From Chlorella sorokiniana (lineage: Eukaryota; Chlorophyta; Trebouxiophyceae; Chlorellales; Chlorellaceae): a stretch of 64,000 nt of DNA. Positions 1 to 54,100 of the stretch are shown piece by piece. The DNA lies in assembly GCA_025917655.1 (NCBI GenBank), contig CP084619.1:3763001-3827000 (forward strand), in the 5' to 3' direction. A program made the position numbers and the translations under genes. The notes under the pieces were generated by a model. That model worked only from the letters and a program-made list of their open reading frames with translations. It was not told the DNA's origin and made no database searches. Positions within the stretch are counted from its first letter, which is position 1; every line of letters begins with the position of its first letter.

Positions 1-3000
1 CCCTGGATCGGTACCGCCGCATCCCAGCCCCAGCCAAAGCCCTCCATGCAGCTGAGGGCACAATCGCCCATCGGGCCCCCTATGCCCCTGCCAGGCCGCC
101 TCCCCTTGACACACACGCACCACGCGCGCCCTTGCCCACATGCAACTACACACATGCCCCCCCCCCGCCCCCGCTGGATTGCGCACCGTTCTTGATCAGC
201 AGGCAGCAGGTGCCCACCGCCTTCTCCGGAATGTCCATGTCGGCTCCCGCGGGAAGGAGACGAAGCGCACCCCGGGCGTCTTGGAGGACAGCGCCTTGCT
301 GCGCAGGGCGTGCCACACCTCGCCTGTGCTCTCCAGCCGCGTGCCCGCAGGGAAGTGGGCGTCGAGGGGGAGTCAGGCTGGCGCGCCCCAGCGTGGCGAT
401 GGAGGGGGCGCTCGTGATCGGCGCAGGGCGGGTGTAGCGACGAGTTGTGTGCCGATGGGGAGAGGGAGTCCATTGGGGGCAGCGAGCCGGGGGCAGCTCT
501 CAAAGGGGCTGATGGGCAGGGAGCCGGGGCCCTGGCTGCTGCGCACCGACAACCGCGGCTGGTTCAGGCTGCCCGGCCGGGAGCGCAGCCCGCCACTGCC
601 GAGCGGGATGCCCGCAGCCGCCGCAAACGGCGTTGCGCTGGCATGCTGCTCAAGGCTTCCCGGCTGCGGCTGCGGGGCTGGGAACCCCGCGTGCCTGTAC
701 CCGGCGCCATGCGCCTGGGCGGCGGCCGGCTCCTGGCTGCCGCTGGGGTGCTGCTGGCCCGCAGGCTGAGGCTGGGGTGCAACCGCGCCGTTGGCATGGC
801 CGTTGCCCTGCTGCTCGGGGTGCTCTCGGCCGCAGCGGGCAGGCTCGCCTCTTCGCCGGTCAGCACGCCCAGCAACGACTCCAGCTCCGCCGCAACTTCC
901 TCGGGGCTGCCCAGCGGTGCGGCAAGCCCCGCGCTGCCAGCCCGCCGTTGGCGTTTTGTTTGGCTGCTGGACCGCCTGGCTGCCCTGTGGCCCGCGCCGT
1001 TAGCCTGCATAGAGGCGTCGCTAGACCCCGCCGCTGACTCGGCGGCCGACGCGGCCATGCTCTGCTGCCAGGTGGCCGCCCCCGCCGAGCTGCCGCTGCC
1101 ATGGATGGCGTGCACTGCGTTGCGCTGCATGACATCGCGCTCCCCCTCCGCCTCCTCCCCCTCCTCCCCCTCCTCGCCCTCCTCGTCCTCCTCCAGAATA
1201 GCCCCCTCACGCATCCCCTGCTGCGCCTCCCACAGCGCTTCGGGCTTGAGGCTGGCCACCAGCGGCATCGCCACGCCGTCAGCGTTGCTGTCCTGGATCA
1301 CGTCCATGAGGGCCTGGGTGGTGATGGACTGGGCGCCTGATAGGCGGGATCATGTGGGGTGGGGTGGGGTGGGGGAGGGGCGGGCAGGGGAGGGGTGCGC
1401 GTGGGTGGTTGAGGGGTGGCGGAACGGCGACGGCGGCGCAACGATCGTTGGTGACTTGTACAATCGGTAAAGAAAGAGAAGGCGAGGCACGCAATCCAGG
1501 ACATCCCGCCTGCTCAGGCCGGCCACAAAAGCATGCAAGGCAGCTGCTGGAGGCAAGGCGGGGCAGCAGGAGGCGCCAGGGTACGCATGCAGGCGCAGCA
1601 GGCGGCAGCGGGGGCGCACCTTCCAGGATGCCGCGCCCAAACACGGTGGTGGCCACCTCGACTGCAGTGGACATGGGGCGGGGGCGCCCTGCTGCTCCTC
1701 AGACACCTGCGCAGCAAGGGTGCAGGGGGCCGACACGAGCACCGCCATCCGTGTCACACGATGGCCTAAACCAGGCTAGAAGCTGTGGCTGCCTGAGCAA
1801 TGGCCGTCCGTCGCTGTTCTTTGCTGGCGCTGACGCTTCACTAACCAGCACGTTGCATGCGCCTGCGTCGCCCCCACCTCACCCACCCACCAGCTCGTTG
1901 GTCCAGTTTTCCAGGGAGGGCGCGTCGTCCATGCGCGACAGATCCATGCTCTCGTCATCACCCGCAACCCGCCCCTCCTCCGGAAGAGCCACCCAGGGGT
2001 GGTGCCGCAGCTGCGCGCCATCAAAGGGCGTGTGCAGCGGCAAAGGCGGCCAGGTGATTGATGGAGCAAGCTTGATCCGGCACGCTGGCGCGCGGAATAC
2101 GAGGTGGTCCCCCTACACCCATTGTGCAGGCCCATCCAGCCTGATCACCTGCTCTGCGGTCGGTCGCTTGGCGGGGTCCTTAGAAAGCAGGCCGTCCAGC
2201 ACTGAGCGCAGGGCGGCACTGCACAGTTGGGTGGAGCGGTCACAGCAGGCGGATGCGTGAGGCTGGTGCTGGGCAGGGTGCCGCACATCATGCAAGCAGG
2301 TGCACGGGGTGACCAGCCAACCCCGAGTGAGGGCGACGGAAGTCGGAGCGTGGCTAGCGCGGGGTTGGCCTTGCTGCAAGGAGAGGCGCTGCTGGTGGGC
2401 CCGCTCGATGCGCACCTTACGGATATGTGCTCCGGGTACCGCACCTCCTGCGTCTGTACCGCCTCGTACAGCTCATCCAGGGTGGCGCCCTGGTGAGCAG
2501 CAGGCGTGGCGGACAAGCTCAACAAGATGGCGAGGACGGCAAGGGAGGGGGAGGCACTCGGGCTGGAGCAATGCGCTGCAGACCCGACCAGCAAGGCAGC
2601 AGGCGTGCGGCGAGCTTGCCTTGAACGGCAGGTCGGCAAAGAGGAAGCAGTACAGGGTGACCCCCAGCGCCCACATGTCGGCAGGCTTGCCGCGGTACGC
2701 GCCGCCGCTGCGCACCTCGGGCGCTGCGGGCAGGGGGCAGGGCAGGCAGGCACCGGGCAGCGTGGCTGGGGGGCAGGCGGGCGGAGCATGGGCGGCCGGC
2801 GCTGCTCAGCGCAAGGAGCCCCGGCGCCGCCACCCACCCATGAAGGCGGGCGTGCCGAGCGTCTTGTCAAACACGTCGGCTCCCTCGTTGAAGAAGTGGG
2901 CCTGCGGGTGCGGGGGGTGCGAGGGGTGGGGTGAGGGGAGGCTGGAATGCTTGGCCCCTGCTCGCAGCAGTCGCCCGCGACCGGTGCTTTCGTGCCTTGC

Positions 3001-4592
3001 CCGTCAGCTTTGCAAGGCCCCCGCACCTAGGACCCCCACTTGCCAACCAGTGTAGACCCCCTCCCACACACCCACCCACACCCACTCACCACACCCACCC
3101 ACCCGCCCACCCGCGCCCTGCCCACCTGCCCAAAGTCTGCGATCTTGACCAGCCCCGTCCCGCTCAGCAGCACGTTGTCGGGCTTCATGTCGCCGTGCAC
3201 CACCGCCGCGCCGTGCAGGTAGGCCAGCCCGTCCACCATCTGGCGGAAGTAGTACTGGGCCAGCGACTCGCCCATGGGGGCGTCGCCCTGCTGCAGGGGC
3301 CCCGCCTCTGCATACTCCTGCACCATCACCACCTGCAGCCCGACGGGGTGGCCGAGCACGCGTGCGGCGGTGGTTGGCATGCAGGGCTGAGTGACATGGG
3401 CCCTGGGCTGTGCCACAGTGGCACTGGTGGACATGCAGGCCTTCGCTCCATTGTGCTTCTGCACCGGCCGCAAGCTGGCATCAAGCAGGGGGCGCCGCTT
3501 GCAAGACGATGCAGCCGGCTGGTCCTGCCGCGGTCCACCGCCGGCCCCCTCCGCCCCCAGGGCGCGGCCCCTGCCCACCTTGTCCTCGGCCTCAATGACC
3601 TCGAAAATCTTGATCAGGTTGGGGTGGTTCATGGAGCGCATGACATTCACCTCGCGCCTGCACAAGGGGGCACAAGGGGACAGCAAGGCGCTCGTCTTCC
3701 TGGGCTTGCTGCAGCAGGCAGTGCAGCAGGGCAGCAGCGCGCAGGACGGACAGCCAGCCCTGCCAGCCCCGCAGCAGCAGCAGCAGCAAGGCGGTGCGCG
3801 GCTGTCCCCGTCTCCCGCTGCCGTCCCACCTGAGCATCTCCAGCGCGTCGCCCCCGCCGCCAGCCGCGCGGCGGGGCCCCAGCATCTGGCGCTTCAGCTG
3901 GGTGCGCTGCAGCACCTTGAGCGCATAGAGGTTGTCGTCCTGCATGCTGTAGCACAGCTTGACGCTGCCGTAGGCCCCTTGCCCAGGGCCCCCAGCACAA
4001 TGTAGTCGTTCAGCAGGGTCACGGACGTGCGCTTGCTCTGCGGGGCATAGGGCGGAGAAGGGGGCGAGCGCCAGCGTGTGAATGAAACCCGGGAGGGGGG
4101 GCCCGCGTGAGGGCGCGCGGTAAGGTCGAGCTTCGGCGGCGGAGCAGCACCGAAAGTCAACAAGTCTGTTGTTTATGATCATCAACAGCAAGCGCCCCAA
4201 TGTGCGCGTGCAGCCCGTACCTCTATGACGCCCACGCGCAGGCCAGAAGTGTGGCGGAAGCCGGCGTTGGGGCCTCGGCTGGAGGTGTCCAGCTGGCTCC
4301 CTGTCAGTGTCACAGAGGCATCCCTGTCCGTGCTCATGGAGTGCACCTCGGGCGGCCAAGTTGCTCCGCCGGCAATAGGTCGTCTGCAAGGAGAAGCATA
4401 GGCACCATGAAGCACCACGCCGAGCGCAGGGATATACCACTGTTTCCACTGCGGCGGCGGCGCCAGTGCTCCCAAGAAGTCCACCAGGCAGGCAACCCGG
4501 CAACTCAATCCGGCCGAACTGACAATCAGACCTGGAGGCTCCTTTTCTGCTTCTCTGCCTTGACTTGCGGGCTTGCTGCTGATACAACCCAT
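1..4592 (-). CDS. CaMKK/GRIK-like Ser/Thr protein kinase, copy 1 (3' end outside window)
   Basis: This gene encodes a protein kinase of the CaMKK / SnRK1-activating (GRIK) type. The ATG at 4592 begins MGCISSKPA, a classic N-myristoylation plus Cys-palmitoylation signal, so plasma-membrane attachment is likely. The kinase domain is spread over about eight exons: a glycine loop near 3970, an HGDMKPDN catalytic loop near 3190 (HGD in place of HRD, as in GRIKs), DFG near 3135, GTPAF near 2850, and a PADMWALG subdomain IX near 2650. The domain closes with HHPWVALPEE near 1995, like the CaMKK HPWVT end. An acidic and Ser-rich tail follows (1300-500), then the start of the cyclic-nucleotide-binding fold (about 200-340) before the window ends. 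The frame breaks at G/C runs, including in the glycine loop (3975-3978) and at 1675-1678. Copy 2 has the extra base at the second site, so these look like base-calling losses. Kinase identity is sure; the exact subfamily is less so. Confidence 0.85.
3050..3125. repeat. C/A-rich simple tract at a 5' splice site
   Basis: On the coding (minus) strand this is a run of GTGGG-type units that starts at the donor directly after the DFG exon of kinase copy 1 and fills the beginning of that intron. Confidence 0.8.
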
Positions 4593-5066
4593 TCAGCAGA
4601 CCGGGGTGGCGTCTATGCGGGTGAAAGCTGTAGGTTTACTCAGACTCGCCCCATTCTCAACGGGACCTCGAGCCTTCATCAGCTGCGAGCGAAGAATTGG
4701 CGAAAGTTGCCACCCTGGCAGCCTGGGCAGCCCGTAATATTCTGTGCTGGGTAAATATGCTGTGCTGCGCCGGTTTTCGGGGAAGTCGAGTCGATCGCCA
4801 TAAACCCGCCTCTGATCAACCCCAGATGCCTTCAAACTTCTTACAGAGCTCTTTTCAGGCCCGCACTGCGCTCCACGCCGCCGGGCTAGGGGCATCGAAC
4901 ATTATTCTCGCTTTCGTGTCCCTTTTTGAGCCTCTCGCTTTCTCGATCAGCTGCTTTACATGATGACAAGAGCGTACGTGAGCAGCGCGGACTGACAGAG
5001 CGGGAGAGATGAGCCAGACGGGCGGGCGGCAGGCTGCAGGCCGCCGCCTGCAGCAAGACGAAACAG
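4593..5066. other. Promoter/intergenic region of kinase copy 1
   Basis: This is the upstream region of kinase copy 1. The first 130 bases or so can still be aligned with the region upstream of copy 2; beyond that the two promoters differ. I see no further gene, TATA box or RNA gene here. Confidence 0.4.
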
Positions 5067-6420: not shown

Positions 6421-6554
6421 CATCCTGTGTGCACCATCTGCATCACCTTCAAGCCACGCAACAGCATTCAGAAAATAGAGCACAGGTGCAAACGCTCGTC
6501 ATGCCTGAGAGCCATACAGTGCATAGTTGAGGGCCAGGGGCCGGCAGGCGCGCC

Positions 6555-9500
6555 TCATTGCTCGCTGCTGCGCCCGCTGCTGCTGCGCACGTCCCTGCGC
6601 TGGCCTCTGCCACCACGCCCGCGTATGATGGCGCCGCTGCCGTGCTTGCCGCCCCTGAAGGAGTCTGTGAAGAACTGGGGCAGGTTGGAGGCGGCGCTGG
6701 CCGCGTCGCCAAGCGGGTCCATCTGCGTCACCTGCTCAGCCAGCTGCGTCGCCAGCTGGCGCGCAAAGCTGACGGCGCGGAAGAGGTCCAGCCGCTCGGC
6801 GGAGCTGGCCTTCAGGCGTTCACGGGCGGCGGCGCGGGCGGGGGCGGCGGGGGCCAGGCAGGAGGCGATGTTCTCCAGAGACTCCAGCTGCAGGATCTCG
6901 GCCCGACTCTTGGACAGGGTGCTGCGCAGGTACACCTGGCAGGGACAGGCGGGACAGGCGGGACAAGCAGGTGAAGCAGGCGGGACCCCATGCGGCAAGC
7001 AAGCATTTTCGGCAAGGGCAGGCTTTGGCCAGGGGGTGGGGTGTGGGGAGGGGTGAGCAAGGAGCGCCAGCAAGCGGGCAGCGCCCGCGCGCCCGCCCCC
7101 GCCCCTCAAACACCCACCCACCCACCAGACACACACACCACACCCACCCACCCCCACCCACCTGCGACAGCGGGTACTGCTTCAGCACCAGCTCAACCGC
7201 CTGGCGCGACAGAGCCACCCCCGCACCTCGGTCCGTGCCCGGAAGACCGGCCGCCAGCGCTCACGCAGCTGCGGCGAGGCGGGCACAGGGGGGCACCGTG
7301 AAGCCTGCCCTGCCCTTGGTGTGCACCAGCCAGGCGGTGCACAGCGACCCTGCTGCCATGCCCAAATGTGCACCAGCCAGACGGTGCGCGGCGGCGGCGC
7401 TGCAGCTGCACCTTGCGGTGCGCGGCGGGCTCCAGCAGCGCGGAGATGCCCAGGAAGTCGTTCGGGCCCCTCACAGTGGACAGCATGTTGGCCTCGGAGT
7501 TGGAGCTGCGCAGGAGCAGGGGGGAGGGGGCGCGCGGCAGCGTGCGCGTGGCTGTGGTCGGGAGATGATGTGGGCCGGGAGCGGCTGCAGCCTGTGTGGG
7601 GGTGGGGAGGCTGTGCTGGGGGCGTGGCGCTGGCGTGAGTGCAGGAGGCGGCGGCAGCCTGCCAGCCCGCCCCAGCCTGGCCCGCCCGCTCACTTGGCGG
7701 AGGCCAGCACGCGCTGCGCCCGCTCCAGCACCTGGTCCACGGTGAGCTGCAGGGAGGCGGAGTGCTGCATGGCGCGCTGGCCCTTGGCGGGGGGCTGCGC
7801 GGGCGGCAGGCAGGGGGAGCGCGGGTGGGTGGCAGCGTGCCAGCATGCGGGCGGCACACGGCGGCGCTGCTGCCCAAGCGGACTGCCCAAGCAGCAGGCG
7901 GATGCGTGGGCCAGTGGGGCGCAGCGTGTTGTGCGCACCGACCGCCCTGGCGTCGGGGCCGCGCGCCACCGAGTCGCGGCGGTTCAGCCGCTCCTCCTCG
8001 TCGCTGTCGCTGCCACTGCTGCTGCCGCTGCCGCTGCTGTAGGGGGCGCCGCGGGACGCGGCACTGCGCCGCCGCCGTGCCACGCGCTGCGAAATCTTCT
8101 GGTAGTCCAGCACCGCAACGTACCGCACGTCCACGATACCTGCGGTACAGCAGTGCAACCTCGTCCAGTGGGTCACGAAGCCCTGGATCGGTACCGCCGC
8201 ATCCCAGCCCCAGCCAAAGCCCTCCATGCAGCTGAGGGCACAATCGCCCATCGGGCCCCCTATGCCCCTGCCAGGCCGCCTCCCCTTGACACACACACAC
8301 CACGCGCGCCCTTGCCCACATGCAACTACACACATGCCCCCGGGGCTTGCGCACCGCTCTCGATCAGCAGGCAGAAGGTGCCTACCGCCTTCTCCGGGAT
8401 GCCCATGTCGGCTCCCGCGGGAAGGAGATGAAGCGCACCCCGGGCGTCTTGGAGGACAGCGCCTTGCTGCGCAGCGCGTCCCACACCTCGCCTGTGCTCT
8501 CCAGCCGCGTGCCCGCAGGGAAGTGGGCGTCGGGGGCGCCAGGCTGGCGCGCCCCAGCGTGGCGATGGAGGGGGAGCGCTCGCGGTCGGCGCGGGGCGGG
8601 TGCAGCGACGAGCTGTGTGCCGATGGGGAGAGGGAGTCCATCGGGGCAGCGAGCCGGGGGCAGCTCTCAAAGGGGCTGATGGGCAGGGAGCCGGGGCCCT
8701 GGCTGCTGCGCACCGACGACCGCGGCTGGTTCAGGCTGCCCGGCCGGGAGCGCAGCCCGCCACTGCCGAGCGGGATGCCCGCAGCCGCCGCAAACGGCGT
8801 TGCGCTGGCATGCTGCTCAAGGCTGCCCGGCTGCGGCTGCGGGGCTGGGAACCCCACGTGCCTGTACCCGGCGCCATGTGCCTGGGCAGCGGCCGGCTCC
8901 TGGGTGCCGCTGGGGTGCTGCTGGCCCGCAGGCGGAGGCTGGGGTGCAGCCGCGCCGTTGGCATGGCCGTTGCCCTGCTGCTCGGGGTGCCCTCGGCCGC
9001 AGCGGGCAGGCTCCCCTCTTCGCCGGTCAGCACGCCCAGCAACGACTCCAGCTCCGCCGCAACTTCCTCGGGGCTGCCCAGCGGTGCGGCAAGCCCCGCA
9101 CTGCCAGCCCGCCGTAGGCTTTCTGTTTGGCTGCTGGACCGCCTGGCTGCCCTGTGGCCCGCGCCGTTGGCCTGCATCGAGGCGTCGCTAGACCCCGCCG
9201 CTGACTCGGCGGCCGACGCGGCCACGCTCTGCCAGGCTGCCGCCAGCGCCGAGCTGCCGCTGCGATGGAGCGCGAGCGATGCGTTGCGCTGCACGACATC
9301 GCGCTCCCCCTCCGCCTCCTCCGCCTCCTCCCCCTCCTCGCCCTCCTCGTCCTCCTCCAGAATAGCCCCCTCACGCATCCCCTGCTGCACCTCCCACAGC
9401 GCTTCGGGCTTGAGGCTGGCCACCAGCGGCATCGCCACGCCGTCGGCGTTGCTGTCCTGGATCACGTCCATGAGGGCCTGGGTGGTGATGGACTGGGCGC

Positions 9501-12500
9501 CTGATAGGCGGGATCATGTGGGGTGGGGTGGGGTGGGGGAGGGGCGGGCAGGGGAGGGGTGCGCGTGGGTGGTTTAGAGGGGTGGCGGAACGGCGACGGC
9601 GGCGCAACGATCGTTGGTGACTTGTACAACGGTTAAGAAAGAGAAGGTGAGGCACGCAATCCAGGACATCCCGCCTGCTCAGGCCGGCCACAAAAGCATG
9701 CAAGGCAGCTGCTGGAGGCAAGGCGGGGCAGCAGGAGGCGCCAGGGTACGCATGCAGGCGCAGCAGGCGGCAGCGGGGCGCACCTTCCAGGATGCCGCGC
9801 CCAAACACGGTGGTGGCCACCTCGACTGCAGTGGACATGGGGGCGGGGGCGCCCTGCTGCTCCTCAGACACCTGCGCAGCAAGGGTGCAGGGGGCCGACA
9901 CGAGCACCGCCATCCGTGTCACACGATGGCCTAAACCAGGCTAGAAGCTGTGGCTGCCTGAGCAATGGCCGTCCGTCGCTGTTCTTTGCTGGCGCTGACG
10001 CTTCACTAACCAGCACGTTGCATGCGCCTGCGTCGCCCCCACCTCACCCACCCACCAGCTCGTTGGTCCAGTTTTCCAGGGAGGGCGCGTCGTCCATGCG
10101 CGACAGATCCATGCTCTCGTCATCACCCGCAACCCGCCCCTCCTCCGGAAGAGCCACCCAGGGTGGTGCCGCAGCTGCGCGCCATCAAAGGCGTGTGCAG
10201 CGGCAAAGGCGGCCAGGTGATTGATGGAGCAAGCTTGATCCGGCACGCTGGCGCGCGGAATACGAGGTGGTCCCCCTACACCCATTGTGCAGGCCCATCC
10301 AGCCTGATCACCTGCTCTGCGGTCGGTCGCTTGGCGGGGTCCTTAGAAAGCAGGCCGTCCAGCACTGAGCGCAGGGCGGCACTGCACAGTTGGGTGGAGC
10401 GGTCACAGCAGGCGGATGCGTGAGGCTGGTGCTGGGCAGGGTGCCGCACATCATGCAAGCAGGTGCACGGGGTGACCAGCCAACCCCGGGTGAGGGCGAC
10501 GGAAGTCGGAGCGCGGCTAGCGCGGGGTTGGCCTTGCTGCAAGGAGAGGCGCTGCTGGTGGGCCCGCTCGATGCGCACCTTACGGATATGTGCTCCGGGT
10601 ACCGCACCTCCTGCGTCTGTACCGCCTCGTACAGCTCGTCCAGGGTGGCGCCCTGGTGAGCAGCAAGTGCGGCGCACAAGCTCAGCGAGATGTCAAGGAC
10701 GCAAGGGAGGGGGAGGCACTCGGGCTGGAGCAATGCGCTGCAGACCCAACCAGCGAGGCAGCAGGCGTGCGGCGAGCTTGCCTTGAACGGCAGGTCGGCA
10801 AAGAGGAAGCAGTACAGGGTGACCCCCAGCGCCCACATGTCGGCAGGCTTGCCGCGGTGCGCGCCGCCGCTGCGCACCTCGGGCGCTGCGGGCAGGGGGC
10901 AGGGCAGGCAGGCACCGGGCAGCGTGGCTGGGGGGCAGGCGGGCGGAGCATGGGCGGCCGGCGCTGCTCAGCGCAAGGAGCCCCGGCGCCGCCACCCACC
11001 CATGAAGGCGGGCGTGCCGAGCGTCTTGTCAAACACGTCGGCTCCCTCGTTGAAGAAGTGGGCCTGCGGGTGCGGGGGTGCGAGGGGTGGGGTGAGGGGA
11101 GGCTGGAATGCTTGGCCCCTGCTCGCAGCAGTCGCCCGCGACCGGTGCTTTCGTGCCTTGCCCGTCAGCTTTGCAAGGCCCCCAGCACCCAGGCCTCCCC
11201 ATTGTTTCAACCAGTGCAGAACCCCCTCCCACCCACACATCCACACCCACTCACCACACCCACCCACCCGCCCACCCACGCCCTGCCCACCTGCCCAAAG
11301 TCTGCGATCTTGACCAGCCCCGTCCCGCTCAGCAGCACGTTGTCGGGCTTCATGTCGCCGTGCACCACCGCCGCGCCGTGCAGGTAGGCCAGCCCGTCCA
11401 CCATCTGGCGGAAGTAGTACTGGGCCAGCGACTCGCCCATGGGGGCGTCGCCCTGCTGCAGGGGCCCCGCCTCCGCATACTCTTGCACCATCACCACCTG
11501 CAGCCCAACGGGGGCCGAGCATGCGTGCGGCGGTGGTTGGCATGCGGGGCTGAGTGACGCGGGCCTTGAGCTGTGCCACAATGGCACTGGTGGACATGCA
11601 GGCCTTCGCATTGTGCTTCTGCACCGGCTGCAAGCTGGCATCAAGCAGGGGGCGCCGCTTGCAAGACAATGCGGCTGGCTGGTCCTGCCGCGGTTCACCG
11701 CCGGCCCCCTTCCCCCCCGGGCGCGGCCTCTTGCCCACCTTGTCCTCGGCCTCAATGACCTCGAAAATCTTGATCAGGTTGGGATGGTTCATGGAGCGCA
11801 TGACATCCACCTCGCGCCTGCACGGCGCAAAAGGGGGCACCAGGGCGCTCGTCTTCCTGCAGCAGGCAGCACAGCAGAGCAGCAGCGCGCAGCAGCGCGC
11901 AGGACGGACAGCCAGCCCTGCCAGCCCCGCAGCAGCAGCAGCAGCAAGGCGGTGCGCGGCTGTCCCCGTCTCCCGCTGCCGTCCCACCTGAGCATCTCCA
12001 GCGCGTCGCCCCCGCCGCCAGCCGCGCGGCGGGGCCCCAGCATCTGGCGCTTCAGCTGGGTGCGCTGCAGCACCTTGAGCGCATAGAGGTTGTCGTCCTG
12101 CATGCTGTAGCACAGCTTGACGCTGCCGTAGGCCCCTTGCCCAGGGCCCCCAGCACAATGTAGTCGTTCAGCAGGGTCACGGACGTGCGCTTGCTCTGCG
12201 GGGCATAGGGCGGAGAAGGGGGCGAGCGCCAGCGTGTGAATGTAACCCGGGGGAGGGGGCGCGTGAGGGCGCGCGGTAAGGTCGAGCTTCGGCGGCGGAG
12301 CAGCACCGAAAGTCAGCACGTCTGCTGCTGCTGATCATCAACAGCAAGCGCCCCAAATGTGCGCGTGCAGCCCGTACCTCTATGACGCCCACGCGCAGGC
12401 CAGAAGTGTGGCGGAAGCCGGCGATGGGGCCTCGGCTGGAGGTGTCCAGCTGGCTCCGTGTCACAGAGGCATCCCTGTCCGTGCTCATGGAGTGCACCTC

Positions 12501-12744
12501 GGGCGGTCAAGTTCCTCCGCCGGCAACAGGTCGTCTGCAAGGAGAAGCAAAGGCACCATGAAGCACCACGCCGAGCGCAGGGATAGACCCACTGTTCCGC
12601 TGCAGCGGCAGCGCCAGTGCCCAGAAGAAGTCTACCCAAGCGGGCAACCCGGCACCCAAATTCCTCCAAGCTGACAAACAGACCTGGAGGCTCCTTTTCT
12701 GCTTCTCTGCCTTGACTTGCGGGCTTGCTGTTGATACAACCCAT
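6555..12744 (-). CDS. CaMKK/GRIK-like protein kinase fused to a C-terminal cyclic-nucleotide-binding domain (copy 2, complete)
   Basis: This is the complete copy of the duplicated gene. The ATG at 12744 opens with MGCINSKPA (myristoylation/palmitoylation). The kinase domain (about 12180-10150) carries the same HGD, DFG and PADMWALG motifs as copy 1. After an acidic, Ser-rich linker the chain enters a cyclic-nucleotide-binding β-roll: KAVGTFCLLIESG (about 8390-8350) is joined to IVDVRYVAVLDYQ (about 8145-8105) by a clean phase-1 intron (GTGCGC…CCGCAG). Then come GPNDFLGISALL (7480-7440, matching the family's DFFGEIALL), SRQAVELVLKQYP (7215-7170) and a helical tail ending at the stop at 6555. 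The kinase-first order is the reverse of PKG. The frame breaks at G/C runs (12133-12136, 10161-10163, 10190-10191, 7218-7222); where copy 1 can be compared it often has the missing base. Ligand binding is not established: I did not find a clear phosphate-binding cassette. Confidence 0.8.
7085..7165. repeat. C/A-rich simple tract at a 5' splice site
   Basis: On the coding strand this is GTGGGTGGGGGTGGGTGGG followed by GT-rich sequence, starting at the donor right after the exon that ends KQYPLSQ in the kinase-CNBD gene. Confidence 0.8.
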
Positions 12745-12870
12745 TGTCAGGAGACCGGGGTGGCGTCTATGCGGGTGAAAGTTTGAAGTTTATTCACAAT
12801 TGCTCCATTGTCTAAGCGAGTTCGCGCCTTCATCAGCAACGCGAGAAGAATTGCGAGGGAGGTACCCTCC
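8181..12870. repeat. Tandem segmental duplication, right copy
   Basis: This is the second copy of 1-4720. It contains the kinase domain, the linker and the first part of the CNBD. Its left edge is only where the comparison stops, because the partner begins at base 1 of the window. The upstream edge is gradual: alignable sequence persists to about 12,870. Confidence 0.95.
11215..11290. repeat. C/A-rich simple tract at a 5' splice site
   Basis: This is the copy-2 counterpart of the tract at 3050-3125, directly after the DFG exon. It has drifted slightly in the number and order of CCCAC units. Confidence 0.8.
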
Positions 12871-18982: not shown

Positions 18983-21900
18983 TCACCGCGCCTGGCGGGC
19001 TGCGTGCCGTGCCATGGCAGCCTGCAGCTGCTCCGCCACCGGGTCGAGCGGCGCGCCGCCGTTCACGCTGACGTTCACGTTCATGCCCTCCAGCAGGCTG
19101 CTCACGCTCTGGTTGCGCGACGACGCCAGCTCCTCGGACAGCTGCGAGGCGGCGTCGGCGTCGCTGGAGGGGCCCGCCCAAATGGTGGGCATCACCTCCA
19201 GCTCCTTGGTGGCGTCACACACAGCCGCCACGGCATCCACCTCATCTGCGCTTGTTCGTGGGCAGGAGCGGGGCGGCGGGAGGTGGTCGTGCGACGCAGC
19301 AGCGGGGACAGCGCAGGCAGTGCACGCAGGCGCTTCGCCTGGCCCTGGCAAACGCAGGCACGGCAAGGGAAGGCGCCTGCCCGGTCTCGCCCCCACACCC
19401 ACCGATGCTCATGTGCTTCAGCAGTGAGCGCGCCTCCAGCTCCAGGTCGGCGACAGCCGCCGCCTCGGCCGCCGCCAGCTCACGCCCCATCGTGAGGCGG
19501 CCGCCGCTGCTGCCGCCCACGCCGCCGCGCAGGAAGGAGGTGAGGCGCTGCATGTTCTCTGGCACGTCGATCATCTCAGCCGCCTCCTCCTCCCCCTCGC
19601 CGCTGCTGGTGGCGGCCAGCCGCATGCCGCGCGCCGCCGCCAGCTCGTGGCGGTGCTCCTGCGCCACGCTGGCGGCGGCGCTGGCCGCAGCATCCACGCG
19701 CTCCTTGCGCCGCTCCTCCTCGCTGGCGGCCTCCGCGGCGCCGCCCGGCCGCTTGCCCAGCAGCGCGAGGTGGGTGTGGCTGCCTGAGCGCGGCACGCCG
19801 CCGCTGGAGCGCTGCAGGCGCGAGTGCACCGCGGCGCGCTGCGCCAGAGCGTGCGCGTCCCCCCGCCGCAAACTGCAGCTCGCTCGGGGGACGCGCCCAG
19901 CGGCGCGGGGCTGGCAAACGGCAGCTGGCGCGCGGCCTCTGCGTCGCCGCGGCCCAGCGTCAGCGCCGGCGCCGGCGACAGCGGGGGCGCGCCCAGCGGC
20001 GACGGCTCCAGCGCGCTCTGCACCGCGGCGGCGGCGGCGGCGGCCAGGCTGCCGGAGCCCTGCGCGGAGCCGAAGAAGGCGATGCCGGCCTGGTCAAAGA
20101 GGCGGGAGGAGGGGGAGGTGGGGCGCTCCGCCACCTCCACCACCAGCCCCGGGCCCACGGGGTAGGCGCTGATGTCGGCATCCACATCCGGCAGCATCAT
20201 CTCCATCTATTGTGGTGGCGGGCAACACAAGAAGAGGGGGCGCGGGGGTGGGGGGGGGAGGGGGTTGAACGGCAGCAGCGCGAAGCAGAAGGGGAGCGGT
20301 GGGGCGGCAGCGAGCGCACGGCGCAGGGGGCCCCGGCTCACCACGTCGCTCTCCCAGTTCTTGCTGATCAGGCGGGACAGCCCGGAGCCCTGGCGGCTGA
20401 AGCTGCGGCGGTGGGCGCCGCCGTGGGGCGGCGAGGCCAGCAGCGCGGCCAGGTCGCCGGTGGGAGCGCCCACCGCCGCCTTGTCCCCCGCCAGCGCGTC
20501 CGCCTCGGCGGTGGGGGACCCCAGGAAGAAGCCGTCCTCGGCGCTCTCCTTCTGCAGGAGGAGCAAGGCAATCGGCAATGCTGAGGGGGCGGGTTGAAGC
20601 AGGGGGGGCGCTGCATGCCGCGGGCACAGCATGTCGGCGGCTGCGCCGCCCGCAGACCGCGCTCGAGGGGGTGCATGCAGGCGCACCTGGATGCCCAGCG
20701 ACATCTCCCGGAACAGACCGCGGTGCTGCTCCGCGGTGAAGCTCTCCTGCTGCAGCAGCGGGCGCGGCGGCAGCGCGGCCGAGTGCGCGGGCGCCGAAAT
20801 CGCGGGCTGCAGGGGGCGGACACGGCGGGCTGCAGGGGTGGGCGGGAGGGGCGGTCAATCAACGGTTAGCGCAGGCCCGTCGCGCAGACGCCCCCTCCAT
20901 CAGCAATCGTCCGTCCTGCAGCTGGGCCCTCCCCCGCACATCTCCGCGCCACGGGGCAGGGCGGCGGCACCCACCTGCTGCACCGAGGCCAGCTGAGTGG
21001 CCACCCGCTGGTCGGTGTACAGCACCCCTGCGTGCGGGCGCTGCAGGTCGGCGGCTGCGCCCAGGGCAAAGGGGTCGGGCTCGCCGCTGGCGCCCGAGGC
21101 GGCGGACACCAGCGACGACGAGCGGCCCGCCAGCAGCTGCAGCTGCGCGCTGCTGAACTGCTGCGCGGGCGGCGCAAACTGCTGCTGCACCACCGTGTAC
21201 TGCTGCTGCATGCCGCCCGCCGCGGGCGCCGCATACTGCTGCGGCGGCGCCGCGGGCTGCAGGAAGGGCGGCGGCGGCGGCGCCAAGGCCACGCCCTGCT
21301 GCGGCAGCGCAAAGGGCGGGTGCGGCGCGGGCATGGAGGGCAGCGCCGCCGCGTCCAGCGCCAGGCTCATGGGCGGCAGGCCCACCACGCTGGGCTCCCT
21401 GCTGACGCCCCCTCCAGCACCTCGCTGCTCAGGGAGGAGGAGGTGGCCATCGGCGACAGCTTGGGCTGGGCCAGGCCGCGGCGGCGGGCGGGCGAGGGCG
21501 AGTAGGCGCGGCGCCCGTGGGTGCGGCTCGCCCGCTGCGGCCGCCGCCGCCCTCCTCCCGCGCCTCGGCGCGCGCCGCCGCGCTGCGAGCCCACGCGGCT
21601 GCTGGCGCAGCACAGGTAGTGCACCAGCACAATGTGCTCCTTGTCGGGGTCCAGCTGCCAGTAGCAGCGCCGCTGCAGCCCGTCGTCCTGGTCGGCGTGT
21701 GCGTAGTAGCAGTTCAGCGTCTCGGCGTTGCCCACTGCGGGCACGCGGGGCCGGGGAAGGGAGGGCTCGCTGGGAGGTGCGTGGGGCGGCAGCGGGCAAG
21801 GCAGGCAACCGCAGCGCCCAGTCAGCGGCCGGGGGTGCTCGGAGGGCGAGCAGCTGCGCCGCACCCTTGAGCTTCTCATGCGTCTCCCTGATCGTCTTGC

Positions 21901-33007: not shown

Positions 33008-35301
33008 TCACGCCTGCGCCTGCTGCGCCAGCGCCGCCACCAGCCGCTCCGCCGCGCGCTCCCCCGTCAGGTAGGCTCCATGCACGGTGCCGATGTACTT
33101 GACGTGGGTGGCCTCCCCGCAAACAGCAGCAGGGGGACGCCCCCCGCCGCCCCCACCGCCCGCCGTCGCCGGCCGGAGCGGGGCGTGCAGGGGCGCGGCC
33201 AGCGCCGCCACGTCGGCGGGGGTGCAGTCGGGCCCCAGGTAGCTGTAGCTGCCGCGGAAGAGGGGGTCGCAGCCCCAGCGCGAGCTGCACGGCAGGGGGA
33301 CACTTGGCGGCGCAACTCAGCACGCATGTACGTCGCCTCAACCATGCGCGTCCCGCAACCCAGCCCATCTCTCAGCAGCGCCGCGCCAGTGGGGCCGAGC
33401 CCCCGGCCATGCCAGCCCCCTCTCAGAGCCCACTCACCGGTGCAGCCTGACGGCGTCCCATCTGGCCCCGGCGGCAGCTGCACCAGCGGGAAGGTGCGGC
33501 TGGCCAGCGTGCGCAGCGCCCCAGCACCTCCTCGTCGCTGGCCGCCTCCATCGCCGCCGCCGCCTCCCCAGCCACCCATGCCACGGCCTGGTAGCACGAG
33601 GGCTGCGTCGCCTCAGCGCAGGGCGAATACTCCTCCTCCTCCTCCGCCTCCTCCGCCTCCTGCTGCGTCAGCCCAGGCGCAGGCTGCCCCGCCGGCCGCT
33701 TCAGCTCAGGCCCGCCAAAGCGAATGCTGAAGATACCCCGCACCCAGCCCGGCAGCTCCTCCTCCAGGCTGGTCAGGGCAGGCGCGCTCGCGCTGTCCCT
33801 TCCCTCCCAAGGCCCCCCACAGCAGTGCATACGACACAGCAGGGCCGTCGGGGCGTCGCTGTGCGTTGCCGCCGCCTCCGTCGCCGAGCCTGCCTCGCCG
33901 CTGGTGCCGCTGCCGCTGCTGGCCCCAGGGGGCGCAAAGTCCAAGATGACTTTGTCCACAACGCCGATGCGTAGGCGGTCTATGGCGGCGGCCTTGGCGT
34001 GCGGCAGCGGCGGGTCAAACAGGCTGCCGCTCGCCGCCTTGAGCACGCCCAGCGACACAGTGACGATGGCGGCATCCGCCTGCAGCGTCTCGCCGTCGGC
34101 GCAGGCGATGGCGACGCGGGGCCGGCCCAGCTGATGCGCTGTACCTCGCAGCCGTACCGCAGGTCGCCCAGCCGCGCCGCCAGGCGTTCAGCCACCGCCT
34201 GCGCCCGCTCAGGGGGAGCAAAAGCAGCGTGATGGTATGTGTGATGAAGGCGGTTTGCAGCAAGTGGCCAAGCACGGGAGATCCCCCGGCGCAAGGGCAG
34301 GCCCTCGCAGGCAGCTGCGGGCGCCCAGGGCGCACCTGCATGCCCGCCGGCAGCGCTGCGTGCACCCCGCCGGGCATCTCGTCATACAGCGCCAGCCCCT
34401 GGGCACTGCGCCGGAGGGGGTCCAGTGGCAGGCACAGCAGCCGCATGTCACGGCACGGCCACAGCGGACGGGGCATGGTCGGGAGCTTGCATGCCGCCTC
34501 GCCCACCTCTGCTCCCCCGGTGCTGTGAGCGCCGTCCATGGCTCGCTGCAGGTGCTCCCTCCAGCGCCACGCCCTGCGGGCCACCTCCTCCTGCTCCGGG
34601 GGCACCCTGCCCGACGCCAGCAGCTGCCGCCAGGCGGCGCGCAGGTGGTCCGCGGTGGTGCCCGCCGCATCGGGCGGCAGCCCCTCCACGACGTCGTTCC
34701 ACGTCGCCAGCGCGTGCGTCACGGCCAGCTGCTGCGCCTTGCACAGCGGCTGGCTGGAGCCGGGCACCAGGAACTGGGAGGACCACCACTTCTGGCCTGC
34801 GGTGCACGCACAGCAGGGCAGGCTCAGCTTGGGCCAGCGCAGTGACTGGCTGCCCTGCAAGCAGCGCTGCGGAGCCCCCTCGACAAAGTGGCTGCACTCA
34901 CCTGCTGGCTGGCTGCGGATCAAGCCCTGCTCCACGGCGTGCCTGAACACGGGGTTGGGCTCGGCGTCGTCGCCCAGGCCGTGGAACCAGGTGGCACCCA
35001 GCTCAAGCGCCAGCTCCGGGGACACGCGCCGCGTGCATGCGCGGCCGCCGGGCCGGCTGCCCGCCTCCAGCACGACGACATCGCAGCAGCGGGAGCGCTC
35101 CAGGGCCAGGGCCGCTGCGAGCCCTGCGATTAACTTGCATGGTGCGTGAGTAGTTTGGCGAGAACAGCAGGCGGGTCCGGGGTTTGCCGCACCTGCAAAA
35201 CCAGCCCCAATGACGGCAACTCTGGGGCGCGCCTGCGCAGCGGCGGCAGGAGAGGCGGGACCCCTGCTGCTCTGGCCTACGGCTGACGTTGACATTGCCA
35301 T
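33008..35301 (-). CDS. Flavin amine oxidase, polyamine-oxidase-like
   Basis: This is an FAD-dependent amine oxidase of the spermine/polyamine oxidase group. The ATG at 35301 starts MAMSTSAVGQSSRGP. The Rossmann motif VAVIGAGFAG|LAAALALE is split by an intron, and VVVLEAGSRPGGRACT follows, then LELGATWFHG. The middle contains IVTVSLGVLKA (near 34,040) and VDKVILDF. The C-terminus has DPLFRGSYSYLGPD and FAGEATHVKYIGTVHGAYLT, the FAD-closing signature, with the stop at 33008. A Gly/Glu-rich insertion (EEAEEEEEYS, near 33,640) is not typical of the family. The frame breaks at 33,115-33,118, exactly inside FAGEATH, and at 34,118-34,121; both are G/C runs. The gene converges on the LHC gene, with about 100 bases between the two stops. 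The substrate (spermine, spermidine or other) cannot be told from sequence. Confidence 0.85.
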
Positions 35302-36677: not shown

Positions 36678-39600
36678 ATGCGACGCGCGCCGCTTGCAGC
36701 CCTCTGTGTGTTGGCGTTGGTCTTGGCAGCGCAGCCTCGGCCCTCACATGGCCAAAATCAAGTCACTTGCGACTCCACTGTTCACTCCAAGCCTGATGGA
36801 GCCTGGCGTACCCATCTCTGGCGCCTCAGCAGGTTTTGGTCTCGCCAAGCTCCAAATTGCCCGGTGCGCTGCCCAGCCGGCCATTCTGGGCGTTTCGGAG
36901 CGTGCTATGGCTAAATTGCCCGCACAAGGGCGCCGCGGCTGCTCGGGTTTCCAACTCGCCCTGACGGCCCGGCGGCGGGACTGCCACAGCCGTCCACCGT
37001 CGCCGTGGCCGTGCATCAAGCCAAGTCCTCTTTTGGCCTGGAGCCTCGACGAAACAGTCACTCCACTGTCATGCGTGCAGGAGTCTTTTGGGCTGCAACA
37101 GGCCGCTGCAAGCTCGCACGAATGGGTCCAGGGCGCGCTTCCCGCCGCCCTGGGGGCTAAGTGGCTCGTGGGCCTGTCGCTCGCCGTCGTCGCCCTCACG
37201 GCAGCACTCGCAGCCTGTGGCTACAAGCTGGTCAGGCTGCAGCAGGAGCTCTGCAGATTGGTGGAGCAGCAGCAGCAGCAGCGGCGGCGGCAGGATGCAG
37301 TTGAGGGTGAGCAGCGCCTGGGGAGACGCTGCCAGCGGGCCAAGCGGCCCGTAAGCCTGCCCCTGTGCCGGCCCACCGAAGGAGAGGCGTAGACTCGCCG
37401 GACGACAGCGCCATGCTGCGCAGCGGCAACAGCAGCAACAGCAGCTACGACGGCCACAAGTCTGTGAACCTCAGCCGGCAGGGCAGCGGCGGCAGCACCG
37501 GGCAGCCCACCCCGCGCTTCGCGCCGCCCAGCGAGTTCATGTCCCCCTTCCAGATGGCGGCCGCCCAGCGGCGAACCTCTGGCTTTGGCCACTCCCCATC
37601 GCTGTCGCCGCCCACATCCACCACACCACGCAGCAGCCTGAGCCCTGGCGGCACGCTGCTGGGCAGCAGGCCGCCGCGCCTGCCTCGCGACCTGGGGGCG
37701 CTGCCTCCGCTGCCGCCCGGGCACTGCCCCTCCCCCGTGGAGGGCCCCCGCTCCTCCAACGCCGGCAGCGAGTCCTGCTCGCTGAGCCCCTACGCCAGCG
37801 GCGTGTTTGAGCGCCAGATGTCGGCGCTGCCGGAGCTGATGGCCCTGGTGACGGCCTACCAGGCCTCCGCTGCCGCAGCCGACGCCTCGCCCCCGCCCTC
37901 CGCAGCCTCCTCCCACGACTCCGCCTCCGACCACGTGCTGCTGTCGGGGGAGGGGCTGGGCCTGCCCAACCCGCTGCTGTCGCACCTGGTGGACCCCTCA
38001 GCGGTGCAGTACCTGCACGGACCGGACGGACGCCTGGAGCAGCTGGGCGCCGGCGCCAGGTGCGGCGCTGGAACTTGCGCTGACTTGCGCTGCCCCCCGG
38101 GCTTGAGCAGCACGTTGTGCAGCCTGCGGCCGCGCCACCCCGGTTCCTCTCACCCGCTGCTGGCCCCCTCCCCCCTGCCCTGCCGCAGTAGCCGCGTGTA
38201 CAAGGCGCTGTTCAACGGCGAGGTGGTGGCCGCCAAGGAGATTGAGGTTGGCAGCAGCGCGGAGATGCGCGAGTCGTTCGTCACCGAGGCCCTCCTGCTG
38301 CAGAACCTGCGCCACCCCAACATCATCGGCTTCTTCGGGCTGAGCCTCACCGCCGACAGGGGCGTGGTGCTGCTGGAGTATGCGGAGGGTGAGGAGGCTG
38401 CGGGGCGGCAGGCTGGGAGCGGGTGGTGTGTGTGTTGTGTGCGTGGGGGAGGGCATCGAATGGTGAATTGTTAAGCAGGATTCTGGGCAGCCTGAGGAGC
38501 ACCTTGAGTTGATTGTTCAGGCTGTGCAGCCATCACCCGTCCCCCTTGGATTCGAAACCTGCGCAGGCCGCGACCTGCACAGCGCTGTGCAGCTCACGGC
38601 GGCGGGCTCCAGCGAGCGACTGTTTGGCTGGCGGCGGCGGGGGCGGCGCGTGGCGTACGAGGTGGCCAAGGCCCTCAACTACCTGCACTCGCGGGCGTTT
38701 CGCACATGGATGTCAAGGTGTGGGGTGCAGGGTGTTGTGGGGGGCTGCTTTCGGGACGCAGCGGATGGAGGGCGCAGGGGCGTGGGTGTGCCGTCAAGCA
38801 GCCCGGCGAGCCACCACACGCGCCTGCACCGCCTGAGGGCATCCAACCTCGCCCCTCGCCGTTGCAGAGCGGCAACGTGCTTCTGACAGCCTCGGGAGGC
38901 GCGGCTGTCGGATGTGGGCCTGTCGCGGCACGCCGCCTTTGGCGGCTCAGCGGCCACCGACGTCAAGGGCATCGGCACCTTTGCCTGGATGGTGAGCAAA
39001 CTGCCGGGAGCGACGCCGGAGAGGCTGGGGCCACTCCGGCGCCTGGACTTGGGACTGGTGGCAAAGACGTGCTGGGAGCACTGTGCCGAGCGTTGCTGTT
39101 GCTTTGACGTTGGCAGCGCCTGCCTCACAGCCTTGTGAACCCCCTCCCCTTCCCCCCCGTTACTCCCCCGCAGGCCCCGAGCTGCTGCTAGACGCAGAGG
39201 GCTGTGACACCTACAAGTGCGACGTCTACAGCTACGGGGGTGAGCGCAGGACTCTACGCTGCCGCCACGCTGCCTGCTGCACTTGGTGGACGCAGTTCAG
39301 GGGCGGCGCGGGTGGGGCACGGGCCTGCCGTCGTCCAGCGAGCGCTGGAGGCTCGCTGATGCCATGCTCCCCTCCCTTGCACATGCTCTGTCAGCCTTGC
39401 GCAGCAGCCCTTCTGATGCGCCCTCCCTTTTCCTGCGCCTGCAGTGCTGCTCTGGGAGATCATCACTGGGGAGCGGCCGCTGCGGGGCAACCTGCGCCTG
39501 CGCGTGCCTGAGGAGTGCCCGCGGGAGGCGGCTGACCTCACCATGCGCTGCCTGTCCCAGGACCCGTCTGCCCGCCCCACCGCGGCGCAGCTGGTGCAGG

Positions 39601-39947
39601 AGCTGGGCATGCTGCTGCTCAAGCGCGCCTTTGCCGCAGACCGCACCACCACCAGCCTGGCGAGGGCGCGCTCCAGCACCGCCGCCGCCGCCGACAGCTT
39701 CGCCATGCGCATGAGCGCCGACGGCGTGCCGCTGCGCACGATACGCACGGAGGAGAGCGCCGGCTCGCTGCGCCGCTCTGTGTCCTTCAACTACCCGCTG
39801 CTGGCGGCGGCGGCGCAAGGCTTTGAGCAGCCCAGCGCGGCGGCGCGCTTGGCAGCCGCGCAGCCCGACCTGCAGCCTGAGCCGCAGCCGCAGCAGGAGC
39901 CAGAGCTGCAGCAGCTCGACTTCCGCCCGCACCCGGTGCGGCTGTGA
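36678..39947 (+). CDS. Single-pass receptor-like protein kinase with atypical HMD and DVG motifs
   Basis: The ATG at 36678 encodes a signal peptide (MRRAPLAALCVLALVLAAQP). A transmembrane helix (WLVGLSLAVVALTAALAACG, about 37,160-37,220) is followed by a Gln/Arg-rich stop-transfer region. A long Ser/Pro-rich juxtamembrane segment leads to a TKL-type kinase domain. Visible are VVAAKEIEV with the ATP-binding Lys (38,230), the αC-helix Glu in SFVTEALLLQNLRHPNIIG, LLEYAEG, YLHSRAF then HMDVK (38,690-38,715), SGNVLL, LSDVGLSRHAAFGG (38,905-38,945), APELLLDAEG (39,175), CDVYSYG and LLWEIITGERPL. HMD replaces HRD and DVG replaces DFG, but both catalytic Asp residues remain. A phosphorylatable basic/Ser tail ends PHPVRL at 39947. 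The short ectodomain (about 36,740-37,080) is poorly resolved. Frames break near 38,699 and at 38,894-38,896. Confidence 0.75.
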
Positions 39948-51119: not shown

Positions 51120-54100
51120 TCAGTCCAGCTGGGGCGGTGTGTGGGACACCCGGTGAACCCAGAGGTTGGCCAGCGGGACCAGGCAGGGGCGGCCGTGCAC
51201 CCAGGCTTCCACAGGCAGATGGCCCTCAAACAGGCTGCGCGGCAAGGCGGGGTGTGGCGTGCGTTAGTCAGCCGCGTGCCATACATGCACGGGGCCCACA
51301 CGGCCTCAACTTGTGCACAACAGAGGACCGCGCCCAGCCCGCCGACGCACCTCAGCGGGAGCAGCGTCAGCCCACACAGCCCCCTGACCACTCCAGCAGC
51401 CGCGGGAAGTCGTCCGGGTCCAGTCCCTGCAGCCGCTGCGGCGCGCCCTCCAGCAGCTGCAGCACAGCCGCCGCGTCGCTGAAGCCGGCCGCGGCGCCCT
51501 CCCCCGCTGCAGCCCATGCCCGTGACGCCGACAGGCACGCCTCTCCGAAGGGCGGCTGAGCCTGCTGGTCAGCGCTGGCCGCCTCTTCTTGCCGCGCATC
51601 CGCCTCAGCCACCTCCGCCTCACCGCCGTCGTCGGCGCCGGCAGGCTGGGGAGGCAGGCACTGCCACGCAGCCTCCGCCTGGCCCCAGGCCTCCTGCAGC
51701 TCCGGCACCAGCCCAAACAGGCCGAGCTGCTGCGCCGCCAGCCTGCAGGGGAAGGCATGCGGGTGGCCAAGGGGGACCGTGGGCCATGGAGCGCTTGCAG
51801 GCTGGGCCCCGCTAAGAATTGGGGGGGCAGGGCTGCTGGGGCGGCGCGCCCGGCCTGTCTCGCCCACCTGACGGTGGCTGCCGCGCAGTACAGCCAGGCA
51901 CAAGCAGCCAGGTGCGCCTGCCCCTCGCCCTGCTCCAGCTGCCGCCGCCAAGCACCGCTGGTGGTGGCTTCGCCCCACACTGCAGCAGAAGCCTGCAGCA
52001 GGTGGGCGGCCGCCTGGAGCAGCCGCGCCCACGCCAAGCCATACTCTGTGACTGCCTCCTCGCCTGGCGTGGCTGCCAGCGCCAGGCCCGCGCCACTCGA
52101 CGGCGTCGGTACGCGCGGCAGCAAGCCCCCGCCCAGCTGCTGCCAAGCGCTGCTGGAGGCCGCTGGCGCGCTGCTGCCGCCCTGGCTGCCTGCCGGGTGA
52201 GCTGTGTGAAGGGGGTCCGCCGCTTCCGACGAGGGGGCATCGCCTCCGTGAGAGAGGGAAGCAGCATCCTCGGCAGCCCCATCAGCAGGTGCTGCGCCAG
52301 CGCTGGCTGGGGTGGGCATGGGCGGCGCGCCGCCGGCGTGCAGCGCTGCCGCAGCCTCCTGCACAGCCAGGCCGCTGCCCGGCCTTCCAGCTGCCAGGGC
52401 CGGCAGCTCACTTCCAGCAACCTCGCCCCAGGCCCCCCAGCCTGCAAGGCCTGCTGCCCAGCGCTGGTCGCCCGCGCTGCACCCTCGGTGGCAAAGCCAT
52501 CGTCGGCATCCTCCTCCCACGCTGTGCGTGCTGCGTTGGACACAACTGCTGCCCCTGCTGCGCCTGCCACCTGCGCAGCCTCCGAGCCCACCACTGCGCT
52601 GTGCGCCTGCGCTGGCAGGGCAGCCGCCTCTGAATGCACCGATGGCTGCTCCTCCGTGTGCGGCGGTGCAGGCTCAAGCGGAGCTGCTGCCTGCTCCGGG
52701 CCTGGATGCGGCGCAGGCGCTGCCGCCGCGTGTCCCAGCTCCAGCGGCGCATCCTCCACATCCTGCCCCCAAACAGATCCAGCGGCAGAGGCGCGCAGCG
52801 CTGCACGCCGCCAGGCAGCGCAGGAGGGAGGCTGCGCCGTCTTCTCGCCCAGGCACAGCCACCGCAGGCGCTGCCACCGCTGCTTGCAGTGCTGGGTCTG
52901 CCGCCGCGACAAAGTCGTCAAACCCGTCGTCGTCACCGCCCTGCCAGTCGCCGCTCGGCGAATCGACGGTGGCAGCTCTGCCTGCATCTCCAACAGGCTG
53001 CGCAATTCCCGCTGCGCCCGCGTTGGAGTTTGGGGGCTGCGGCACAACGTCAGCAGTCTCTGGCGTTTCTGCCTGGGCAGGCAGGCTGGGAAGCTGCGCT
53101 GCATCGGGCTCGACATGCTCTGCAGCCGGCGGCACGCCACCCTCCACCGCCTCGCTCTCCACGATCCCAACGGCAAAGAGGTCCTCCGGCAGAGCCGCGC
53201 CTCGCTGCACACCCGCTGGCGGCGGGGTGTGAGGCGGCGATGTGCGCGCAGGCGAGGGCAGCTGCTGCGGCTGCTGCAGCCCCAGGCTCTCCAGCTCCTG
53301 GCCTCGGCCGCTGCCCTCGGCCCCCACAAAGTCGTCGAATGCGTCGTCGCCGTCGCCCCAGCCGTGTGAGGCTGCTGGCGCTGGAGGCGGGGAGGGAGCG
53401 CGGGGTGCAGCCGGCGGCTGCCTCACAAAGTTGGCGGCGTAATCCACCGCAAGCAGCCGGCCTGCTGGGTCGCGCATCGTGCTGGGCGGGTCGGCCGGCG
53501 CCTGAGGGGGTTGGGGCGGGGCTGCCGGGAGACTGGCCGCGTTTCCTGCTGCTGCTGCACCAGGCTCGGCGCAGCAGCAACAGCGCTGACACCCGCTGCA
53601 GGCGCTGCCGCCGCGTGTCCCAGCTCCAGCGGCGCATCCTCCACATCCTGCCCCCAAACAGATCCAGCGGCAGAGGCGCGCAGCGCTGCACGCCGCCAGG
53701 CAGCGGCCCCTGCTGCCCAGGCTGCTCGTGCTGCGACAGCGATGGCGGCAGGCCTGCATCCGCAAAGTCGCCGGGTCGTCTGCAGCCAGCTCCTGCGCCT
53801 GCTGCTGCTGCCGCCGCTCCTCGGCCTCCAGCCTGTCCGCCACTTCGGGGGCAGCCGCGTGCAGGAAGCTGCGGAAACGCTCCAGCGCCGGCGAAGAACT
53901 GCCTGCATTGCCACCAACTCAACAATTTCTTTGCCTGTGCAACACAGCGACGCAATGTTCCACCGTAATGGATGGCAGCGTGCCGAGCGCTTGGGCCCAC
54001 CTGCGCTGAGGTGCCTGGATGGGGCCGGACCGGGAGAGCCCGGCGCTGGGGAGGAGGCGGGGGGGATGCCTGTGCCATGAAGGGCGACGCAGGCGCTGCC

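Follow-up and report, generated by a model that had tools for sequence, protein, structure and literature searches.

In a 64,000-base window of the Chlorella sorokiniana genome (positions 3763001–3827000 of contig C2; genome of 38.8 Mb in 15 contigs), we analysed a gene, copy A, in which a protein kinase domain of the CaMKK/GRIK type precedes a predicted cyclic-nucleotide-binding domain (CNBD). This kinase–CNBD fusion is most likely real. We consider it probable that copy A, its tandem duplicate (copy B) and two diverged genes on other contigs (genes C and D) form a four-member family of CaMKK/GRIK-type kinases that begin with an acylation-type sequence, end in a CNBD and act by the mechanism proposed below. 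With such kinases, which would combine a CNBD and an acylation signal in one protein, the regulation of SnRK1-activating kinases (SnAKs) and the question of cyclic-nucleotide-dependent kinases in plants would both become directly testable, and the family offers its own contrast, with one member (D) having the binding residues and three (A, B and C) lacking them.

Structure of copy A

Copy A lies on the minus strand and runs from an ATG at 12744 (MGCINSKP) to a TGA stop at 6557–6555. Exons 1–12 were set by splice motifs and kinase homology, and the borders of the later coding segments were checked by position. The composite sequences of A, C and D used below were assembled by eye, bridging introns and frame breaks. 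The coding segments of copy A, and the part of copy B that lies in the window, are as follows.

12684–12744, minus strand: exon 1, N-myristoylation/palmitoylation-type start MGCINSKPASQGREAEKEPP
12378–12534, minus strand: exon 2, frame break at about 12500 in the run CCC
11988–12195, minus strand: exon 3, glycine loop, ATP lysine (YALK) and RP-type insert; break at about 12133 in the run GGGG
11739–11817, minus strand: exon 4, αC helix (REVDVM)
11291–11497, minus strand: exon 5, catalytic loop VVHGDMKPDN and DFG
11000–11063, minus strand: exon 6, activation loop KTLGTPAFM
10782–10885, minus strand: exon 7, PEV..ADMWALGVTLYCF; the next intron is modelled as GC–AG
10579–10652, minus strand: exon 8
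10312–10381, minus strand: exon 9, LLSKDPAKRPTAEQ
10056–10174, minus strand: exon 10, kinase end (HHPW); break at about 10160, where copy B is in frame with one extra C
9784–9871, minus strand: exon 11, linker
8355–9500, minus strand: exon 12, long low-complexity linker, then the first CNBD strands VRFISFPR/GADM..GTFCLLIES (aligned to gene C); frame breaks at about 8985, 8535 and 8415
7943–8139, minus strand: exon 13, (G)IVDVRYVAV and the beginning of a loop insert; 3' end uncertain
7694–7794, minus strand: exon 14, PPAKGQRAMQHSASLQLTVDQVLERAQRVLASA
7412–7505, minus strand: exon 15, cassette region RGPNDFLGISALLEPAAHRK, without the canonical Glu
7162–7268, minus strand: exon 16, RWRPVFRARTEVR/VALSRQAVELVLKQYPLSQ; break at about 7220 in the run GGGGG
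6555–6935, minus strand: exon 17, C-terminal helices, tail and stop TGA at 6557–6555
1–4592, minus strand: copy B, kinase, linker and first CNBD strands

A preliminary description of the window had joined kinase and CNBD by a phase-1 intron, and the borders given here (8355 for the end of exon 12, 8139 for the start of exon 13) bear this out by restoring LIESG/IVDVRY. An equivalent phase-1 intron was recognized by eye in gene C (IEQG/VCEVRY). TGTAA, the algal polyadenylation word, occurs once soon after the stop of gene C; none was found on the minus strand between 12900 and 6000 (copy A) or in the scanned stretch of gene D, so that the word does not help to place the ends of these two genes.

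Domain order in the four genes

Copies A (6463–12853) and B (window coordinates −1740 to 4699) constitute a tandem duplicate with 93% identity, which the preliminary description did not record; the remaining CNBD exons of copy B lie to the left of the window, down to about −1740. A genome search with the C-terminal domain of copy A detected the diverged gene C on contig C5, in which an MGCASSKP start is followed by kinase, linker and C-terminal domain. Gene D, on contig C8, encodes a CaMKK-type kinase with a CNBD at its end and MGCATSK, the predicted start, upstream of the kinase. The codon pattern for HGDxKPxN was found at exactly four sites in the genome, those of A, B, C and D, and a reversed-pattern control gave none. 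The four genes are likely, though not proved, to be all the CaMKK/GRIK-type kinases of this genome, a count that rests on the exact pattern, as the search misses HRD kinases and motifs broken by an intron. Two other kinase loci were set aside on the basis of their motifs, one (L027) reading as MAP-kinase type and the other (L028) as MST/GCK type.

At all four HGDxKPxN sites, distributed over three contigs, the order was kinase, long linker and CNBD, in support of the kinase-first, CNBD-last arrangement initially claimed for copy A. The kinase and the CNBD-like region might instead belong to two adjoining genes, or to alternative transcripts with the mature kinase ending before the CNBD, as could be suspected from the great length of the low-complexity linker within exon 12 and from the broken frame between the two domains in the assembly. 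However, the identical order in A, B, C and D and the conserved linker block that adjoins the CNBD on its N-terminal side (GSLPISPFESCPRLAAP in A, GSLPIAVSPRPARLAAP in C) make this separation very unlikely. A search for relatives in viral and other genome contig collections gave 345 and 52 pattern matches, respectively, among which no relative was confirmed. In the titles and abstract openings listed in our literature search, with most subscription journals outside its scope, no CaMKK/GRIK–CNBD fusion was mentioned, and the available portions of PMC5698759 and PMC545951 contain nothing on a kinase–CNBD fusion of this kind.

Kinase domain

The spliced composite of copy A matched Pkinase in Pfam at 6.2e-58, which is beyond chance. 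Among solved structures in the PDB, the best match of its kinase domain was CaMKK2 (1.8e-56) and the next family was MARK4 (5.7e-44), while the gene D kinase matched CaMKK1 (2.9e-56) ahead of BRSK2 (6.4e-36); CaMKK leads the other solved kinases by about 12 (A) and 20 (D) orders of magnitude. Judged by these matches, the kinase of copy A is of the CaMKK type, in agreement with the CaMKK/GRIK-like catalytic domain first proposed for it. The ATP-binding Lys, the αC Glu, the D of HGD, the N, DFG and APE are all conserved in the composites of A, C and D. In the alignment, the catalytic loop of copy A reads HGD where CaMKK2 reads HRD. HGD is a feature of plant GRIK kinases; the comparison made here covered kinases of known structure.

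Identity of the C-terminal domain

The C-terminal domain of copy A is, by homology, a CNBD, and its β-roll is likewise predicted. This assignment is made because copy A is homologous to its paralogs C and D, which reach the Pfam profile PF00027. In single pairwise comparisons of the C-terminal domains, the E-values were 5e-29 (A–C), 5e-8 (C–D) and 2e-6 (A–D). With its long insert left out, the gene D domain scored 6.8e-11 against PF00027 (42.4 bits, above the cut-off of 27.5), and its best PDB matches were to PKA RI-alpha (9.6e-5). When a profile of all four CNBDs was compared with the PDB, 51 of the 53 distinct sequences among the matches listed were CRP/FNR-type regulators, HCN channels, PKA or PKG; the remaining two among those listed were PycTIR and aminopeptidase P. 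A very long Q-rich insert separates the third strand of the gene D CNBD from its cassette (locus L033, about 2885–1570, minus strand), and shorter inserts are present at the equivalent place in the CNBDs of A and C.

Several results weigh against this assignment. The C-terminal composite of copy A, tried in four forms, gave no CNBD in Pfam at E≤10, and the domain matched no PDB chain at the same threshold. Gene C matched no PDB chain at E≤10 either; it reached 8.9e-6 against PF00027 only with the loop insert cut out (26.0 bits, under the 27.5 cut-off) and 0.0058 with most of the insert kept. The last part of gene D taken alone scored 6.1e-4 (20.1 bits, below the cut-off), and the best PDB match of the four-CNBD profile was only 0.054. 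The highest CNBD scores came from composites without inserts, so that their E-values are optimistic. A genome-wide PF00027 search listed seven matches, none of them in A, B, C or D, presumably due to the scoring of single exons. The preliminary description, which had proposed a CNBD-like β-roll in copy A, had named an empty profile search as grounds for abandoning it; the search with copy A was indeed empty, and the proposal is recovered through paralogs C and D.

Ligand pocket

Only gene D retains both the Glu and the Arg that contact cyclic nucleotides: its RRGPGDFVGEMEAL and SRRLATVVA line up with the part of PKA RI-alpha that holds the Glu and Arg, and a cyclic nucleotide could apparently be accommodated in its pocket. 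The cassettes of A, B and C read FLG-ISALL or FVG-GLAML, with neither the Glu of FGE nor an Arg aligned to that of gene D. Because these canonical contacts have been lost, gating of copy A by a cyclic nucleotide, as envisaged in the preliminary description, is doubtful and receives no support here.

The CNBDs of A, B and C might still be true cyclic-nucleotide sensors with an unusual pocket, through which cAMP or cGMP gates the kinase. Their homology to CNBDs, the Arg residues near the cassette of copy A (AAHRK, ERWR) and the PDEase_I (phosphodiesterase) fragments at two genome loci favour such a sensor. Against it, in addition to the missing Glu and Arg, no class III cyclase (PF00211) was detected in the genome at E≤10, although the search was exon-wise, may have missed one and is not conclusive; this negative also counts against the proposed reading of the family as a whole. 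In a control search, PF00211 gave matches in five of 14 prokaryote genomes. On balance, we regard a sensor of this type in A, B and C as unlikely.

Alternatively, the CNBDs of A, B and C may now recognize a different ligand, for example a purine nucleoside. Regulatory subunits of trypanosomatid PKA that lack the cassette Arg bind nucleosides (PMC10959531); in our view, a nucleoside ligand would suit a regulator of an energy kinase. The trypanosomatid cassette, however, keeps the ribose-contacting Glu and gains a second one (PMC10959531), whereas the FGE position lacks a Glu in A, B and C, and a switch of this kind appears quite improbable.

Frame breaks in copy A

Seven breaks interrupt the reading frame of copy A, each in a run of three to five G or C; the preliminary description did not mention them. 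Each break is explained by one missing base, and near 8535 a two-base gain fits equally. The breaks are most likely assembly errors, because a glutamate synthase gene in the same window has equal one-base shortfalls, at three G/C runs (63100–63010 and 62660–62560, minus strand). Two stretches of this gene in different frames cover adjacent positions of Pfam Glu_synthase (263–287 and 288–333), with no room for an intron between them, and a further stretch, once two one-base gaps were closed, matched ferredoxin-dependent glutamate synthase (2.2e-11) in a nearly gap-free alignment. Similar one-base shortfalls were seen by eye in genes C and D. The assembly appears to undercount homopolymers, and the reading frames of this genome need caution.

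The opposing explanation holds that the frameshifts are genuine and that both A and B are pseudogenes in decay. Copy B has the identical run at five of the seven break sites of A, as inherited defects would give, and these shared breaks are the strongest argument against assembly error. The ratios of replacement to synonymous rates (dN/dS) between A and B weigh in the same direction, being 0.93 in the CNBD part (17 synonymous and 45 replacement changes), 0.71 in the linker, 1.27 in the N-terminal part and 0.75 overall. Nevertheless, the breaks fall in G/C runs of the sort at which the glutamate synthase gene and genes C and D are also short, the base absent from A at the HHPW site is present in B, and the catalytic residues of the kinase are intact, so that decay of the two copies seems improbable to us and assembly error is preferred.

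Compared with A, copy B carries a single extra C at the HHPW site and two extra bases near 8535, and it has breaks of its own, such as an exon 11 of 87 bases against 88 in A. The dN/dS of the kinase part was 0.16, on only six changes (four synonymous and two replacement), and 139 of 2915 non-coding positions differed between the copies. Five runs of 195–340 identical bases, several of them spanning introns, were found within 12242–9844; gene conversion may keep the kinase exons of A and B alike. When the changes in the CNBD were polarised with gene C as the outgroup, four fell to each copy and 14 were undecided.

Predicted membrane anchor and proposed mechanism

An MGxxxS-type start is a consensus for N-myristoylation. 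All four genes begin with MGCxxSK, namely MGCINSKP (A), MGCISSKP (B), MGCASSKP (C) and, as a predicted start, MGCATSK (D), in accordance with the myristoylation signal reported at first for copy A, and N-myristoyltransferase exons are present in the genome. One exact match to LKTSCGSPNYAAPEV, which we take to be an SnRK1-type T-loop and hence a candidate substrate, was found in the genome. In other organisms, CaMKK-beta phosphorylates AMPK and GRIK/SnAK kinases activate SnRK1, and SnAKs need no Ca2+ and appear to be constitutively active in vitro (PMC4033248).

In the simplest mechanism, which we propose here, the exons of copy A would form one transcript, and the protein would be myristoylated at Gly2 and held at the membrane. 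Its kinase would phosphorylate the T-loop of the catalytic subunit of the algal SnRK1, as CaMKK and GRIK do elsewhere, and the CNBD would serve as the regulatory module, in the place of the Ca2+/calmodulin switch of animal CaMKK. The CNBD of gene D may be gated by a cyclic nucleotide, and those of A, B and C would more likely be docking or autoinhibitory modules independent of cyclic nucleotides, or binders of another small ligand. A more far-reaching version, which we put forward only tentatively and hold to be doubtful, is that this alga has reworked the CaMKK/SnAK-type input to SnRK1 into membrane-anchored kinase–CNBD fusions, with D reading a cyclic nucleotide and A, B and C reading another purine-type ligand or counter-regulating, such that a second messenger and not calcium sets energy signalling.

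Other features of the window

A chlorophyll a/b-binding domain (Pfam, 7.6e-13) fits an algal origin of the window. A CG-1 domain (5.4e-14) marks a CAMTA-type transcription factor gene at 21412–21771 on the minus strand, coding-like to about 19013 by a codon-usage scan. A flavin amine oxidase gene lies at 33522–35115, minus strand (4.1e-14 and 5.2e-9), and a protein kinase gene, presumably Raf-like and with an extended low-complexity region at the N-terminus of its product, at 37386–38396 and 39456–39944, plus strand. An exact direct repeat of 108 bases occupies 52713–52820 and 53598–53705.

Comparison with known systems

The algal genes resemble animal CaMKK1 and CaMKK2 in the catalytic domain, which in copy A is 38% identical to that of CaMKK2, and in the insert between the ATP lysine and αC. 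In animal CaMKK, the kinase is followed by an autoinhibitory and calmodulin-binding tail; the algal genes differ in having a CNBD at the C-terminus, HGD instead of HRD and an MGC start. With Arabidopsis GRIK1 and GRIK2 (SnAKs), they would share the character of a plant-lineage upstream kinase of SnRK1, and they share the HGD loop; to our knowledge, GRIK1 and GRIK2 are short and have no CNBD. Chlamydomonas CDPKK2 (Cre17.g705350) has been called a GRIK1 orthologue (PMC5704542; PMC6344539) and tied to energy signalling, and phosphorylation of its Ser1210 increases in nitrogen starvation (PMC5704542), which implies a protein of at least 1210 residues. It is far longer than land-plant GRIK and may have a design like that of the kinase–CNBD genes.

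PKG also combines a kinase and CNBDs in one chain, with the CNBDs preceding an AGC kinase, whereas the algal genes have a CaMKK-type kinase first. The preliminary description was right that the two orders are opposite; a kinase before a CNBD nonetheless has a precedent in Dictyostelium GbpC, a single protein whose kinase lies N-terminal to its cyclic-nucleotide-binding domains (PMC11988041). GbpC differs from the algal genes in its leucine-rich-repeat (LRR)/Roco-type kinase with a guanine-nucleotide-exchange-factor relay, its two CNBDs and its GRAM domain. In plants, cyclic-nucleotide-dependent kinases were still described as controversial in a 2018 review (PMC6174285). The regulatory subunit of trypanosomatid PKA resembles A, B and C, as proposed here, in that a CNBD with an altered cassette regulates a kinase (PMC10959531), and differs from them in being a separate subunit with other residue changes.

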